Part shown: positions 19,537 through 63,239 of the stretch, one piece after another
Layout of the letters: each line of letters opens with the position of its first letter
Numbering within the stretch: position 1 is the first letter of the stretch
Assembly: GCF_011046895.1 (NCBI RefSeq)
Contig: NZ_CP049250.1
Span: forward strand, 940,001 to 1,004,000
DNA length: 64,000 nucleotides
Direction: 5' to 3'
Source of the DNA: Rhizobium rhizoryzae
Lineage (GTDB): Bacteria > Pseudomonadota > Alphaproteobacteria > Rhizobiales > Rhizobiaceae
Program-made: the position numbers and the translations under genes
Notes under the pieces: model-generated
What the model was told of the DNA's origin: nothing
Databases searched by the model: none
What the model saw: the letters and a program-made list of their open reading frames with translations, nothing else

Positions 19537-19637
19537 GACGCGTTTTCCTTCAGCCATGTTGACGTTTGAATGACGCTAGCCACGATTTTTTAAAAAGAGC
19601 AAGGGCGGAATTTAGAAAAAATCAATAAAATCATATA

Positions 19638-19652
19638 TTTAATCGATTTAAA
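19638..19652. promoter_or_regulatory. Operator-like site 1 upstream of pckA
   Basis: TTTAATCGATTTAAA has a perfect AATCGATT core centred on CG and AT-rich arms, the layout of LacI-family operators. Its centre is 30 bp from site 2. Confidence 0.45.
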
Positions 19653-19666
19653 GATTTTTTTCTATT

Positions 19667-19682
19667 TTTAAATCGGTTTGAA
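19667..19682. promoter_or_regulatory. Operator-like site 2 upstream of pckA
   Basis: TTTAAATCGGTTTGAA is an imperfect CG-centred palindrome sharing AATCGRTTT with site 1, three helical turns away. Confidence 0.45.
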
Positions 19683-45805: not shown

Positions 45806-48235
<2,430 letters not shown>

Positions 48236-49280: not shown

Positions 49281-50395
49281 GGCATGAACCTGATTGCAGC
49301 CTGCTTCGGCACAAAGATAAAGAACAGTGCGTTGTTGCGCACTGTTCCCGCTTTCTCTCCTGCTTCGAAACCGGAGCCTGTGAAGATGTCACCGCGGGTT
49401 GGACCAACAATCGCTGATCCCGTATCGAGGGCCAGCATGAGGCGCGCGAAGGGTAGCCCATCATCAAGATGAGTGAGGCTTTCCGAGCGAATGAAAAATG
49501 GAAAACCAAATGTATGGATCAGCCTGTCAACAGCCAGCGAACGCCCTGCGATCAAGGGAACTTTTGCAGCCGCAATCGGGCCGAGATCCTGCTCACTGAC
49601 CTCTGCTTCCCGAAAGAAGATATAAGACCTGTTGTGCCAGAGAACCTCGTCTCGCTTAGTCGGATTTTCGTTCAGCCATGAGCGGATCGTCTGCATGGAG
49701 ACTGTTGTAGCGTCAATCTCACCGCGATCGATCAGAAGCCGTCCGATGGGTGAAAATGGATGTCCTGCCTTTGCCGCATAGGTGATCCGCTTTACACGGC
49801 CATCTGGATAACGAAGCCTCGCCGCTCCCTGCACATGCGTAAAGAAAACATCGACCTTCGATTTCGCCCAGGCAATCTCGAGACCCTGACCCTCCAGATA
49901 GCCCTGATCGATGGATTTTCGATCGGGGTATGGCTCAATTCCGCTCCCCGTTACCCGCCCAAAGGCGTAGTAGGGGTCCATGCCTGCCGGACGGTTGGTC
50001 TCATCCACATCAACGAGATCAGACGGCCGACTATAAAACGGATATTGATAGCCGGATTCCTGCCTGTCGCTCACCTCGACTTCCGGTTCATAAAACGCGG
50101 TCACGAAGCCGGTCTGGATGTCATCTGGACAGATTGCAAAGGGAACGCAGGTTTCCTCAAAGAATGTACGCGCCGCGGCGGCGCTTTGCGGCGGGCCCAG
50201 AGTTTCCGCCTTCTCCAGCAAGGGAATCAAATCCTGCGCGGAAAGACCCAGCGCGCCTGTCTTATAGGGCTTTCCCTGCCGCAAGTAGTTCAAGCAATGG
50301 CGCATACCCTCGAAGACGGGACGCGGATCATCCGTGTTCCAGCCTTCGACATCGGCAAAGTCGATCACACGAAGTTGCGGCAGATTATGTGTCAT
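49277..50395 (-). CDS. mltA: MltA-type lytic murein transglycosylase
   Basis: 372 aa. Cleaves peptidoglycan glycan strands with 1,6-anhydro formation. The MltA domain (TGFVTAFYEPEVEVS, then the 3D domain with LMLALDTGSAIVGPTRGDIFTGSG containing the catalytic Asp) is intact. No signal peptide or lipobox is visible at the N-terminus MTHNLPQLRVIDFADVEGW, and the start overlaps timA (ATGA), so a longer form is unlikely. How it reaches the periplasm is unclear. Confidence 0.9.
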   Translation of the reverse strand: MTHNLPQLRVIDFADVEGWNTDDPRPVFEGMRHCLNYLRQGKPYKTGALGLSAQDLIPLLEKAETLGPPQSAAAARTFFEETCVPFAICPDDIQTGFVTAFYEPEVEVSDRQESGYQYPFYSRPSDLVDVDETNRPAGMDPYYAFGRVTGSGIEPYPDRKSIDQGYLEGQGLEIAWAKSKVDVFFTHVQGAARLRYPDGRVKRITYAAKAGHPFSPIGRLLIDRGEIDATTVSMQTIRSWLNENPTKRDEVLWHNRSYIFFREAEVSEQDLGPIAAAKVPLIAGRSLAVDRLIHTFGFPFFIRSESLTHLDDGLPFARLMLALDTGSAIVGPTRGDIFTGSGFEAGEKAGTVRNNALFFIFVPKQAAIRFMP

Positions 50396-53659: not shown

Positions 53660-54507
53660 TGGTGCTTGTCCATATCCGAAATGACGAGCTGACGCAGCTG
53701 CTCATCGACCGCCGGTCGCTTGCCAAACCATTTCTCAAAACCGGGAACTGCCTGATTGAGCAACATGCCCAATCCATCCACTGTCGTCTTTCCCTGCCGT
53801 TCCGCCTCTTTAAGCATCGGGGTCTTCAGCGGCACGTAGACAATATCGGTGACGGTCGCTTCGTCCTGCATGCCCGTAAAATCAATTGCAATCGACTCCT
53901 GTCCGTCCATGCCAAGAGAGGTTGTATTGATGAAGAGGCCTGCTCCGCTCATGACCTCGCGCAAGGCACCCATCTCATGCGCATGAACACACGAGCCAAA
54001 CCGGTCGGCCAGTTCCCTCGCCCTTTCCACCGTGCGGTTGACGACATGGATTTCGCCAATCTTTCGATCACGCACCGCTTGGATCACCGCACGACTGGCG
54101 CCACCTGCTCCAAGGATGACGGCCTTGTCGGCCTTCGACCAGCCTGGTGCTCGCTGATCGAGATTGGCAACAAAACCATATCCGTCCGTATTGGTTGCGT
54201 GGACCAAACCATCGGTGACCCACAGGGTATTGGCCGCCCCAAGTTCCTGAGCAAGTTCATCCGGTCGGTCAGCAAGTTTGCATGCGACTTCCTTATGAGG
54301 AATGGTGACGTTCCCACCACGAAACTTTTTCGAGGTCCGAAGGTCAGAGAAGAAGGTTCCAAACTGCTCCGGAGCCACGTCAATCGCTCGATATTCGCCG
54401 GCTATTCCAAAACCACGTAGCCAATGCGTATGGATCATCGGCGAGCGTGAATGATGGATGGGATGACCGACCACGAAAGCGGTTAACGTTTCACGTGAAT
54501 CAGACAT
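53656..54507 (-). CDS. aroE: Shikimate dehydrogenase
   Basis: A 283-aa NADPH-dependent enzyme of the shikimate pathway. VTIPHKEVA holds the catalytic Lys, TNTDGYGF the catalytic Asp, and [12 protein letters not shown] the Rossmann loop. ATG 54507 has GGGAG upstream. Codons 3-7 (SRET region) contain a parS-like site. It overlaps maf by 8 bases and coaE by 4. Confidence 0.96.
54487..54502. other. parS: parS-like site C
   Basis: CGTTTCACGTGAATCA matches the parS consensus at 14 of 16, sharing GTTTCACGTGAATC with site A. It spans the maf stop and the first codons of aroE, about 1.5 kb left of the proposed origin. Confidence 0.65.
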
Positions 54508-55099
54508 CAATCACTCCCAGATTTCGGAGGGCCTCTAAAAGGGGAAGCATGGGGAGGCCAAGGATGGTGAAATAGTCGCCGTCAATGCGTGAGAAGAGAT
54601 GGATCCCCTCTCCTTCAAGCTGATACGCTCCCACGCTTGTCATGACCTTGTCTCCAACGCGATCAAGATAGCGTTCGATAAACTTGTCCGAAAGCTCGCG
54701 GACATGGAGGGAGGCCGAGAATACGCCTTCCCACTCAACATGACCGCTGCGGACAATGGAGATTCCGCTATTCAGATAATGAACGTTGCCGGAGAGGGCG
54801 ATCAAGGTCGCTTTTGCCTCTTCGCGGTTCTTAGGCTTGTGAAAGACGTGCTCGCCGAGAGACATGGTCTGGTCTGAACCGATGACAAAAGCATCCGGAT
54901 ACCGTTGGCTGACATCCATCGCTTTTGCCCGTGAGAGATGCTGCGCTACCTCTCTGGGCCCTGCTGCACTTTTTTGCAGCTCAGCTTCCATCTTTCGCTC
55001 GTCTATATTGGCAGCAGACCATTCGAACACCAGTCCGGCGTTTTCCATCAAGCTGCGGCGAAAAGGACTGGACGAAGCCAGAATGAGTTTCGGTTGCAA
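54500..55099 (-). CDS. maf: Maf-family nucleotide pyrophosphatase
   Basis: 199 aa. Maf/HAM1-like hydrolase acting on non-canonical or modified nucleotides; some members affect septum formation. [14 protein letters not shown] is the N-terminal signature and IGSDQTMSL the central one. I start at TTG 55099 ([10 protein letters not shown]) because GAGGTG lies 5 bases upstream and homology begins there; the frame stays open for 84 more codons inside the upstream gene, without support. It lies 28 bp after the PDRP gene. Confidence 0.92.
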
Positions 55100-55127
55100 G
55101 GCGGCACCTCGTTTGCTCCGTTTTCGG

Positions 55128-55949
55128 TTAGCGCAGCTTCGGGCGTAGAGCAACGATAGCCGCAGCCGTTTCTTCAATAGAACGACGAGAGACATCGATA
55201 ACGGGCCATTGGTGGCGCGCGCACACGGCGCGTGCGTACTTAAGCTCCTCAATGATACTTGCACGGTCTGTATAAGGGCTGGGGTCAAAACCCTTGGTAT
55301 GGCCGAGTTCCCTGTTCTCCCTGACCTGTGAAATACGATCGGTCGTCGCAACCAGACCGACGATCAGGGGTTTGGTCGCTTTCAACAGACTTTCCGGTAA
55401 AGGTGTACCCGGCACGAGCGGTACGTTCGCGACCTTGATTCCACGATTGGCAAGATAAATACTGGTGGGCGTCTTGGACGTGCGGCTGATCCCGACGATC
55501 ACGACGTCAGCCTCATCATACTCTTCAGCCATCTGGCCATCGTCGTGATCCATGGCGAAATCCAGAGCCTCAATGCGTCGAAAATAATCCGCATTCAGGA
55601 CGTGCTGCGCTCCAACGCGACGACGCGAGCGTGATCCCAGATAGGCCTGAAATACCGCAAGCACCGGCTCAAGCAAATTGACCGACGGAACTCCCAATTC
55701 CTTGCAGCGTTGATCGACATAGTCTGCAAGGGACTGGTCAACGATGGTGTAGAGTACGATGCCAGGCTTTTCGTCGATATGCTCCAGAACCGGCAGTAGC
55801 TGCTGCTTGTTCCGGATAAGCGGATAGACATGCTCGATCGGATTGGCGCCCCGAAACTGGGCAGATGCTGCCCTGCCCGCAGAGATCAGCGTCTCTCCCG
55901 TTGAGTCAGATATCAGATGGAGATGGAAGAAGTTTCTGCGGTTCTCCAC
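55128..55949 (-). CDS. Pyruvate,phosphate dikinase regulatory protein (PDRP, DUF299)
   Basis: 273 aa. DUF299 kinase/pyrophosphorylase that (de)phosphorylates a Thr on PPDK or PEP synthase, switching the PEP/pyruvate node. [11 protein letters not shown] is the N-terminal motif and [15 protein letters not shown] the P-loop. The GTG start at 55949 has no strong ribosome site. Rhizobia carry PpdK, the likely target, but its gene is not in this window. It is the first gene of a five-gene operon leading away from the proposed origin. Confidence 0.92.
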
Positions 55950-56350
55950 GCTAATCTCGCTTTGCTGTTCATAACCTGGGATAGACAGGCCATTATTGGG
56001 ACCGAGGTATCCGGGAGCGGGATAACAGCCGACTTATCCACATTTGGATCCGGCAACCGATAGCTTATCCAGCCGCTGTGGGAAATGTGGACAATATGGC
56101 GCAGATCATGACTTTTCCGAAGTTATCCACAAAGTGAAAGCGCTGATCGTTGCGATATGTGACTGATTTTCATCCGTAAAATGAGTTGTCCCCACAGTTG
56201 GGTTCATTTGCTCCTTTCCAGCGTGATTGTCTTTTGCTGAAGCGAGGAAACGGGACGATCTGTGCAACAGACTTTATCCCTGATAGTCACCGACTCTAAG
56301 AATCAGAAAATCTAAAGATTCTAGATTTCTTTGTTTTAAGGGAGACTGTC
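55950..56350. other. oriC: Probable chromosomal replication origin (oriC)
   Basis: A 401-bp non-coding gap between divergent PDRP and hemE genes. DnaA boxes: perfect TTATCCACA at 56034-56042 and 56123-56131; TTGTCCACA on the minus strand at 56086-56094 (8/9); near matches at 56065, 56077 and 56186 (7/9). An AT-rich stretch with three GANTC sites (56292, 56300, 56317) adjoins hemE. The location beside hemE matches the origins of Caulobacter and Sinorhizobium. gyrB, dnaQ, parS sites and parA flank it. Interpretation is by analogy; no experimental proof is available from sequence. Confidence 0.82.
56292..56321. promoter_or_regulatory. Cluster of three GANTC (CcrM) sites
   Basis: GACTC (56292), GAATC (56300) and GATTC (56317) lie within 30 bp, next to the hemE start. 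CcrM methylates GANTC in alphaproteobacteria and its hemimethylation marks replicated DNA. Confidence 0.65.
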
Positions 56351-57388
56351 GTGAGCGCTGTGAGACGCAAGCTTCTCGAAGTTCTGGACGGAGCGACTGT
56401 CTCGCCTCCACCAATCTGGCTTATGAGACAAGCCGGACGTTATCTGCCGGAATATCGAGAGACGCGGAAGCAAGCGGGAAGCTTTCTGCAGCTTTGCTAT
56501 TCTCCCGAACTGGCCACGGAAGTGACACTTCAACCCATCCGTCGCTATGGGTTCGACGCTGCAATCCTGTTCTCAGATATCCTCGTGATACCGGACGCGC
56601 TGAAGCGCAGTGTGCGTTTTGTCGAGGGCGAAGGCCCTCGCATGGATCCGATCGACGAAGCAGGCATCGCTGCTTTGGACGGCAAAAACGTTCTGTCGCA
56701 TCTCACCCCCGTCATGCAGGCTGTTTCCAGCATTCGACGTAGTCTTCCAGAAGAGACAACGCTTTTGGGATTCTGTGGTGCACCGTGGACCGTCGCTACC
56801 TATATGATCGCTGGCCGCGGGACACCGGATCAGGCACCGGCACGGCTGTTTGGCTATCGTCACCGTGAACGGTTCCAGTATCTTCTGGAATTTCTGGCCG
56901 ATATCTCTGCCGACTATCTGGTTGCCCAGATCGATGCGGGCGCCGATGCGGTGCAGATTTTCGATTCCTGGGCGGGTGTTCTGGGTGAAGAAGAGTTCAA
57001 GGGGTTTGCGGTCAAGCCGGTCGCTCGCATGATTGCGTCTGTGAAAGCCCGTCGTCCAGGAGCGAAGATCATTGCCTTTGCCAAAGGCGCTGGGATGAAC
57101 CTGAAACACTATCGGCAGCAGACAGGCGCTGATATGATCGGGCTAGACTGGTCTGTGCCTCTGAGTTTTGCGGCAGAGCTGCAGAAGGAGGGTCCTGTTC
57201 AGGGCAATCTGGATCCAATGCGCGTTGTAGCAGGCGGTCGGGCGCTGGAAGAGGGAATAGATGCCATCCTCCAGGTGTTGGGTAGCGGACCACTCGTCTT
57301 CAATCTTGGCCATGGTATTACGCCGGAAGCTAATCCGGACCATGTGACACAACTCGTTGCTCAAGTTCGTGGATCGAAGGATGGCTGA
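56351..57388 (+). CDS. hemE: Uroporphyrinogen decarboxylase
   Basis: A 345-aa TIM-barrel enzyme making coproporphyrinogen III in heme synthesis. [16 protein letters not shown] is the N-terminal signature, [14 protein letters not shown] the second; catalytic Asp lies in [10 protein letters not shown]. The GTG start follows AGGGAG. The promoter lies within the origin region, so hemE firing may be tied to replication, as described in Caulobacter. It overlaps hemJ by 8 bases. Confidence 0.97.
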
Positions 57389-57926
57389 CGAGCTGCAAAC
57401 GCATGAAGCGTCTGGACGTCGAGCCCGTTTCAAGGCTGCCATCGCGCTCGTGGTGTTTCTAGCGCTTCTCGCTTTGCCCTACATCCTGGTGCCAGATCAG
57501 TTCTATCTTTGGGCAAAGGCCTTTCACGTCATCGCCGTGATTTCGTGGATGGCAGGTCTCTTCTACATGCCCAGGCTCTTCATTTATCATACCGATGCGC
57601 CGGAAGGCTCTGTCCAGTCTGAAACGTTCAAGGTGATGGAGCAACGCTTGCTCAAGGTCATCATGAATCCGGCCATGATGATCTCATGGCTCTTCGGGCT
57701 GTATCTTGCCTGGGAAGGCTTCCGGTTTCAGGGAGGCTGGCTGCATGCCAAAATTCTGGCTGTCGTTCTGCTGACCCTGGCTCATGTCCATCAGTCGCAT
57801 TGGGTAAGACGATTTGCGAAGGATGCGCCCCGAAAGCCTGCGCGCTACTGGCGAATGATGAACGAAATCCCGACCGTATTGATGATTTTGATCGTAATCC
57901 TCGTGATCGTGAAGCCCTTCGCTTAA
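57381..57926 (+). CDS. hemJ: HemJ-type protoporphyrinogen oxidase
   Basis: A 181-aa integral membrane protein with about four hydrophobic helices (24-46, 50-70, 100-120, 150-175 approx.). [25 protein letters not shown] contains the conserved His of HemJ, and the WMAGLFYxPRLFIYH motif is diagnostic. Converts protoporphyrinogen IX to protoporphyrin IX. ATG 57381 overlaps the hemE stop, so two heme steps are co-translated. Confidence 0.92.
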
Positions 57927-62618: not shown

Positions 62619-63239
62619 ATGAAGTTGAATGGTATTGCTGTTTCACGTGAAACAGAACAGCGACTAAACATTTTTGCCGAGCTGTTTTACAAATGGGCGA
62701 AAGCCATCAATTTAGTCGCGCCCTCAACTAAAGGCGATCTTTGGAGCCGCCATTTTGCAGACAGCGCTCGGATCTATCAGCTCAATCCTGAACCCTGCCA
62801 ATGGCTTGACCTCGGGTCAGGTGGCGGGTTTCCAGGAGTTATCACTGCCATTCTCCTGGCAGAAACAGGCTTTGGCTGGGTCGATCTTGTGGAGAGCAAT
62901 CATAAGAAGGCTTCGTTCTTGCGAACTGTGCTCAGCGAAACCGGTGCTCGTGGCTCCGTCCATACGGTGAGGATTGAAGACGCACCTGCTGTCATTTCAA
63001 AGGAGATCAATGCGATTTCTGCAAGGGCTCTCGCTGAACTTCCACTTTTGCTCGATTACTGCAGTCCATGGATGCTGAATAAACCGGGCGTGACCGCTTA
63101 TCTCCACAAAGGGCGGGATTATCAAACAGAGGTTTTGAAAGCCAATAGAAGTTGGACCTTTGATCTGTTAAAACATGCGAGCCATGTGGAAGAAGATTCA
63201 GTCGTGCTGCAGATCTCAGGTCTCAAGCGCGCATCGTAA
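62619..63239 (+). CDS. rsmG: 16S rRNA (guanine527-N7)-methyltransferase RsmG
   Basis: 206 aa. SAM-dependent methyltransferase (formerly GidB); loss gives low-level streptomycin resistance. [14 protein letters not shown] is motif [20 protein letters not shown] precedes it. Residues 8-12 (V-S-R-E-T) are encoded by the perfect parS site E. It lies 1 bp after mnmG, and parA follows after 18 bp. Confidence 0.96.
62639..62654. other. parS: parS site E, perfect consensus
   Basis: TGTTTCACGTGAAACA, 16 of 16 to the universal chromosomal parS consensus, inside the 5' end of rsmG and about 600 bp from parA. This is the most likely primary ParB loading site. Confidence 0.9.

Follow-up and report, generated by a model that had tools for sequence, protein, structure and literature searches.

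A predicted hemE-adjacent replication origin on the main chromosome of a member of the Rhizobiaceae, and a conserved GANTC-bearing block within it

The non-coding gap between the genes for a pyruvate,phosphate dikinase regulator (PPSR) and for uroporphyrinogen decarboxylase (hemE) is, with a probability of about 0.96, the predicted DnaA-dependent replication origin (oriC) of the 3.38-Mb main chromosome of this member of the Rhizobiaceae. From its sequence, it is assigned to the known hemE/COG1806 type of main origin, in a form that lacks CtrA sites, on the basis of its location, a cluster of DnaA boxes, an AT-rich stretch and, within the sampled stretches only, a switch in strand skew. The origin itself is ordinary, as already known in related bacteria, and fixing it for this chromosome is a routine result. 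The gap also holds a conserved block of about 35 bp with a GANTC site that the first-pass annotation had missed. This block may constitute a modest new lead, with the idea of a methylation-marked origin element unproven. The window, i.e., the whole stretch of 64,000 nucleotides that was analysed, corresponds to bases 940001-1004000 of contig C4 (3,375,736 bp) in a genome of 4,984,090 bp and six contigs.

Evidence for the origin

The first-pass annotation had proposed the chromosomal oriC in a gap of about 400 bp beside hemE, with two perfect, one 8/9 and three 7/9 DnaA boxes in about 160 bp and an AT-rich block next to hemE. All of these elements were recovered: the gap measures 401 bp between the divergent PPSR and hemE reading frames, the six boxes are all present at 56034-56194, and the AT fraction reaches 0.68-0.70 in 40-nt windows starting at 56290 and 56310 (Table 1). 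The equation of PPSR with COG1806/DUF299 follows the accessible part of PMC1914354. On the 3' side of the gap, the gene order is hemE, hemJ, rho, mnmE, mnmG and rsmG. The dnaA gene is situated 350 kb from the gap (C4:644612), and a location of dnaA far from the origin is usual in this class. A scan of positions 55000-57500 against Rfam gave no match up to an E value of 1.

Table 1. Features of the predicted origin region (positions in the window; perfect parS additionally at its contig position)
Feature	Position	Strand	Basis and remarks
Predicted oriC gap of the main chromosome	55950..56350		401 bp non-coding; boxes, sampled skew and relatives
PPSR gene (pyruvate,phosphate dikinase regulator, PRK05339 family; COG1806/DUF299), left flank	55128..55949	-	ORF; NF003742, E 8.9e-102
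hemE (uroporphyrinogen decarboxylase), right flank	56351..57388	+	TIGR01464, E 4.3e-120
7/9 DnaA box, near PPSR end	55966..55974	-	Motif search; fourth 7/9 box of the gap
Perfect DnaA box TTATCCACA	56034..56042	+	Motif search
7/9 DnaA box	56065..56073	+	Motif search
7/9 DnaA box	56077..56085	-	Motif search
8/9 DnaA box TTGTCCACA	56086..56094	-	Motif search
Perfect DnaA box TTATCCACA	56123..56131	+	Motif search
7/9 DnaA box	56186..56194	+	Motif search
Putative conserved Rhizobiaceae origin block, ~35 bp	56275..56309	+	Alignment; one copy in genome
GANTC (CcrM-type) site, GACTC, inside block	56292..56296		GANTC in 70/71 aligned gaps
Least stable duplex of gap; proposed unwinding element	56294..56339		38/63955 window positions less stable
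Second GANTC site	56300..56304		Kept in only 17/71
Third GANTC site	56317..56321		Kept in only 3/71
Perfect parS palindrome TGTTTCACGTGAAACA (C4:1002639)	62639..62654		Motif search; 6.3 kb downstream of gap

With regard to the DnaA boxes, the perfect form is not enriched genome-wide (nine occurrences in 4.98 Mb vs. 19 of a reversed control pattern), so that the signal consists in the clustering, and the two perfect boxes of the gap form the only neighbouring pair in the genome. Boxes with at most one mismatch occur 16 times in the window; 100 shuffles gave 6.5 on average and in no case as many as 16. Such boxes are found in all 71 aligned gaps of the window and its relatives, on average 2.97 per gap as compared with 0.06 after shuffling. 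Close pairs of one-mismatch boxes are also present at 47962-48083 and, inside a predicted ORF, at 49803-50009, 6-8 kb away from the gap, and possibly reflect chance or titration.

Strand composition was sampled in 23 stretches of C4 (22 of 20 kb and one of 15.7 kb) together with the window split at 56000, a sample that covers about 0.52 Mb of the 3.38-Mb contig. All 12 sampled stretches to the right of the gap (996 kb to 2.58 Mb) have a positive GC skew; on the left arm the skew is negative in 11 of 13 stretches, the remaining two having the wrong sign. In the same stretches the motif GGGNAGGG, the FtsK-orienting motif of Escherichia coli, resides on the plus strand in 25 of 30 cases to the right and on the minus strand in 43 of 45 cases to the left. 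Both skew and motif polarity switch a second time between 2.58 and 2.72 Mb, and the antipode of the gap, calculated for C4 as a presumed closed circle, is 2.684 Mb. A GC-skew minimum elsewhere on the chromosome had been named in the first pass as an argument against an origin at this place; with switches at the gap and near the antipode, the sampled skew raises no such objection. The skew is weak across the sampled stretches, with the wrong sign in two of them, and its cumulative minimum in the window falls at 54416, 1.5 kb to the left of the gap, so that skew alone would not place the origin at the gap, and it is the combination of skew, boxes, parS and synteny that does so. The perfect parS palindrome TGTTTCACGTGAAACA is accompanied by only two one-mismatch sites in the genome (position 45755 of the window and C4:1070261), both within 75 kb of the gap. 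A search with a dif consensus and up to three mismatches returned no site. On the 1.2-Mb replicon C3, a strong strand bias of GGGNAGGG extends over at least the first ~540 kb among the matches listed.

A scan of contigs for hemE provided at least 80 loci listed as relatives, the closest named record by hemE among them being Rhizobium sp. FKY42 (95% identity). Among the matches listed, PPSR is located divergently upstream of hemE in 73 of 80 loci, and the intervening gap amounts to 388-407 bp in all 51 PPSR-bearing loci within L001-L053. In a survey of the class, hemE was detected at an E value of 1e-40 or better in 224 of 289 genomes; among 60 class-wide upstream regions, 54 have PPSR divergent from hemE within about 1 kb and only 14 have perfect boxes within 600 nt before hemE. 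This synteny matches the rule published for Caulobacter and Rickettsia, as given in the accessible part of PMC1914354. A PPSR homologue was not found in five draft genomes (those of loci L049, L054, L056, L057 and L068). One hemE origin locus of the Rhizobiales type, L065, stems from an entry titled Bacillus subtilis SK6B4, which is probably mislabelled. For the alignment of 71 gaps, the window was combined with 70 of the 73 PPSR-bearing loci; three loci with gaps of at least 480 bp and seven without PPSR in range were excluded and inspected separately.

According to the excerpts available from PMC8203912, DnaA is also a transcription factor, and the boxes might for this reason be regarded as a DnaA titration or regulatory site for PPSR and hemE, with the true origin elsewhere. 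Such an arrangement is extremely improbable, given that the skew switch, parS, the unique box pair and the class-wide synteny all coincide at the gap. The proposal of a chromosomal oriC is supported by the box cluster, the sampled skew switch, parS and the gene neighbourhood.

Conservation of the block and its GANTC site

The block at 56275-56309 is about as conserved as the perfect boxes and adjoins the least stable DNA of the gap. In 52 aligned rows (the window and loci from L001-L053), the 20-base stretch with the highest conservation in the gap begins at 56281-56283, its mean identity to the window being 0.92, as compared with 0.75 for the best such stretch with a start left of 56250, which surrounds the box at 56034, and with 0.88 for the two perfect boxes alone (18 bases). 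Over its whole length the block reaches a mean identity of 0.83, with 0.43 for the rest of the gap; the value for the block is not higher because the window departs from the majority form.

In the genome studied, the block occurs once when up to three mismatches are allowed. With up to one mismatch allowed, a degenerate form of the block was matched in 181 of 297 genomes of the family, including four of five from the same genus, and had no match in the other 116; in this survey, matches were counted irrespective of hemE adjacency and a reversed control matched in 22 genomes. The best of 60 class-wide upstream regions has seven mismatches in 22 positions, which is within the range of 79 controls (best five, median nine), so that the block was not found outside the family in this set; the corresponding figure is four mismatches or fewer in 55 of the 71 aligned gaps. 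A likeness to the E. coli oriC was discarded as not significant, shuffles being as good in 159 of 1000 cases for the majority form and in 836 of 1000 for the form of the window. No description of the block was found in the literature searched, subscription papers on rhizobial oriC being outside its scope, and novelty is unproven.

GANTC sites number 3.73 per gap on average vs. 2.07 in shuffles (71 gaps). The one inside the block reads GACTC in 66 gaps, GAGTC in three and GATTC in one, the single exception being locus L067. Among the matches listed, 53 rows of the block contain one mismatch, and 51 of these keep GANTC, its free base being changed from C to G in 26 rows, spanning 17 genera, and from C to T in one; the two rows without GANTC represent additional matches, each from a genome in which a perfect one is also present. 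These conservation counts (70/71 and 51/53) are of raw rows and ignore shared descent. A conserved pair of GANTC sites was considered and dropped in view of the poor retention of the second site at 56300.

Possible roles of the block

We examined the distances of the block to its neighbours in 79 loci, of which L067 has no block by the pattern used, leaving 78. The block is located 50-74 nt before hemE in 71 of these; a DnaA box precedes the block by 240-262 nt in 66 loci and by 158-172 nt in 36. The close spacing to hemE would be expected if the block were a promoter or leader of this gene, e.g., a GcrA/CcrM-regulated promoter with GANTC, and unrelated to initiation. GcrA is indeed encoded in the genome, as is a CcrM-like methyltransferase with a RAMA domain scoring over its cut-off (CcrM model E 1.9e-190; 632 bits, below the curated cut-off of 830), and GcrA is reported, in the part of PMC8116508 available, to act at promoters with methylated GANTC. 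In addition, four draft genomes of Mangrovicella, Aureimonas and Aurantimonas (L054, L056, L057 and L068), in which no PPSR was found, keep a block-like stretch 62-183 nt before hemE with five to six mismatches in 22, a level attained by two of 79 controls; in two of these loci (L057 and L068) no box within one mismatch was found over 7 kb.

As the distances from block to hemE and from block to box are both well kept, the seven loci in which the block lies 96-407 nt from hemE are the telling cases, and six of them retain the far box 240-262 nt upstream of the block. Two draft assemblies, in which contamination is possible, point in the same direction. Rhizobium sp. 18055 contains one hemE without block, boxes or PPSR (L043, 3001-4032) and a second one together with all three (L178, 1562-2590). 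The hemE of Pseudaminobacter soli (L069) lacks both block and boxes and is found on another contig than the origin features. The latter, an 8/9 box and a block-like stretch (four mismatches in 21, with GAGTC), occur between PPSR and hemJ in the absence of hemE (L179, 2405-3312); the stretch could there serve hemJ. A search of the Pseudaminobacter soli genome with the block pattern returned only another place, without GANTC, which is taken for a chance match. Judged from these arrangements, the block is more probably a part of the origin than of hemE, and a function restricted to the hemE promoter or leader appears unlikely; the block may have a dual role in both.

The least stable DNA of the gap begins at 56294, and 61 of 70 related gaps likewise have their least stable 45 bp towards hemE. 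This led us to propose opening at 56294-56339, with the block as a hinge. We infer that DnaA would bind the two strong boxes and, cooperatively, also weaker ones at 56034-56194, and would then open the AT-rich stretch beside hemE, from which two forks would depart in opposite directions; the block at 56275-56309 would form the hinge joining the box field to the place of opening. Within the window as a whole, duplex stability over 45 bp is lowest at 19616-19673, away from the origin.

Its position between the boxes and the low-stability stretch could also make the block a basal unwinding system (BUS) composed of DnaA box, spacer and DnaA-trios, a system predicted in most bacterial origins according to the part of PMC8287927 available. 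Box-spacer-trio patterns do occur in 34 of 71 gaps vs. 0.20 expected, a value obtained with shuffles that contain no boxes. We looked for a conserved position with a box and at least three trios no more than 16 bp away; the patterns were scattered, with none of the 12 commonest places listed falling at the block, and this identity is not supported. In the window there are two such patterns, which come after the boxes at 56123 and 56186, away from the block, and the trio-like triplets within the block, in our reading, point the wrong way for this layout. A BUS at the block is improbable.

Placing the block in the origin leaves room for a further, speculative idea, namely that CcrM methylation of its GANTC distinguishes new from old origins. 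In its full form, the block would be a Rhizobiaceae-specific origin element in which methylation of the near-invariant site at the edge of the unwinding region separates fired from unfired origins and replaces control by CtrA; we consider this doubtful. Reports on Agrobacterium and Caulobacter speak partly against a methylation-marked origin and, more precisely, against a strong influence of the methylation state on initiation. Near ori1 of Agrobacterium, GANTC motifs show lower methylation on average, but overproduction of CcrM had no significant effect on ori1 and raised ori2 (PMC11514494, accessible part). In Caulobacter, CcrM is reported not to be required for initiation, although its overproduction disturbs chromosome number, and the enzyme is apparently essential in alphaproteobacteria other than Caulobacter (PMC6090056, accessible part). 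The block offers a short and exact target for studying how initiation is limited in Rhizobiaceae in the absence of CtrA at the origin, and it also allows one to ask whether their CcrM acts at oriC.

Comparison with known origins

As the first-pass annotation had stated, Cori of Caulobacter crescentus adjoins hemE; it is sited between hemE and COG1806 and likewise comprises several DnaA boxes and an AT-rich stretch (PMC1914354, accessible part) as well as several GANTC motifs (PMC3973325, accessible part). In contrast to the gap studied here, which has perfect TTATCCACA boxes, Cori features five CtrA sites, an IHF site and TGATCCACA G-boxes, as far as the available portions of the literature describe it. 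CtrA sites of the form TTAA-N7-TTAA are absent from the window and occur in one of the 71 gaps; an exact IHF consensus, which is a weak test, is not found in the window and occurs in eight of the 71 gaps.

The chromosomal oriC of Sinorhizobium meliloti also adjoins hemE. Gap length (406-407 bp) and block are shared by three Ensifer/Sinorhizobium loci (L027, L030 and L045), on which this comparison rests, S. meliloti 1021 being outside the locus set. The absence of CtrA sites here agrees with a report on the S. meliloti origin (PMC4433202, accessible part). The origins of Rickettsia and Wolbachia resemble the present one in being flanked by hemE, and that of Rickettsia also by COG1806; unlike here, CtrA sites are reported for Wolbachia (all from the accessible part of PMC1914354).

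As in the E. coli origin marked by Dam and SeqA, a methylation site within the origin could mark replicated copies; in contrast to that system, the site here would be GANTC with CcrM in place of GATC with Dam, and a single one is conserved. We know of no SeqA equivalent for GANTC and CcrM. If true, a CcrM-marked block would represent a functional parallel to Dam/SeqA.
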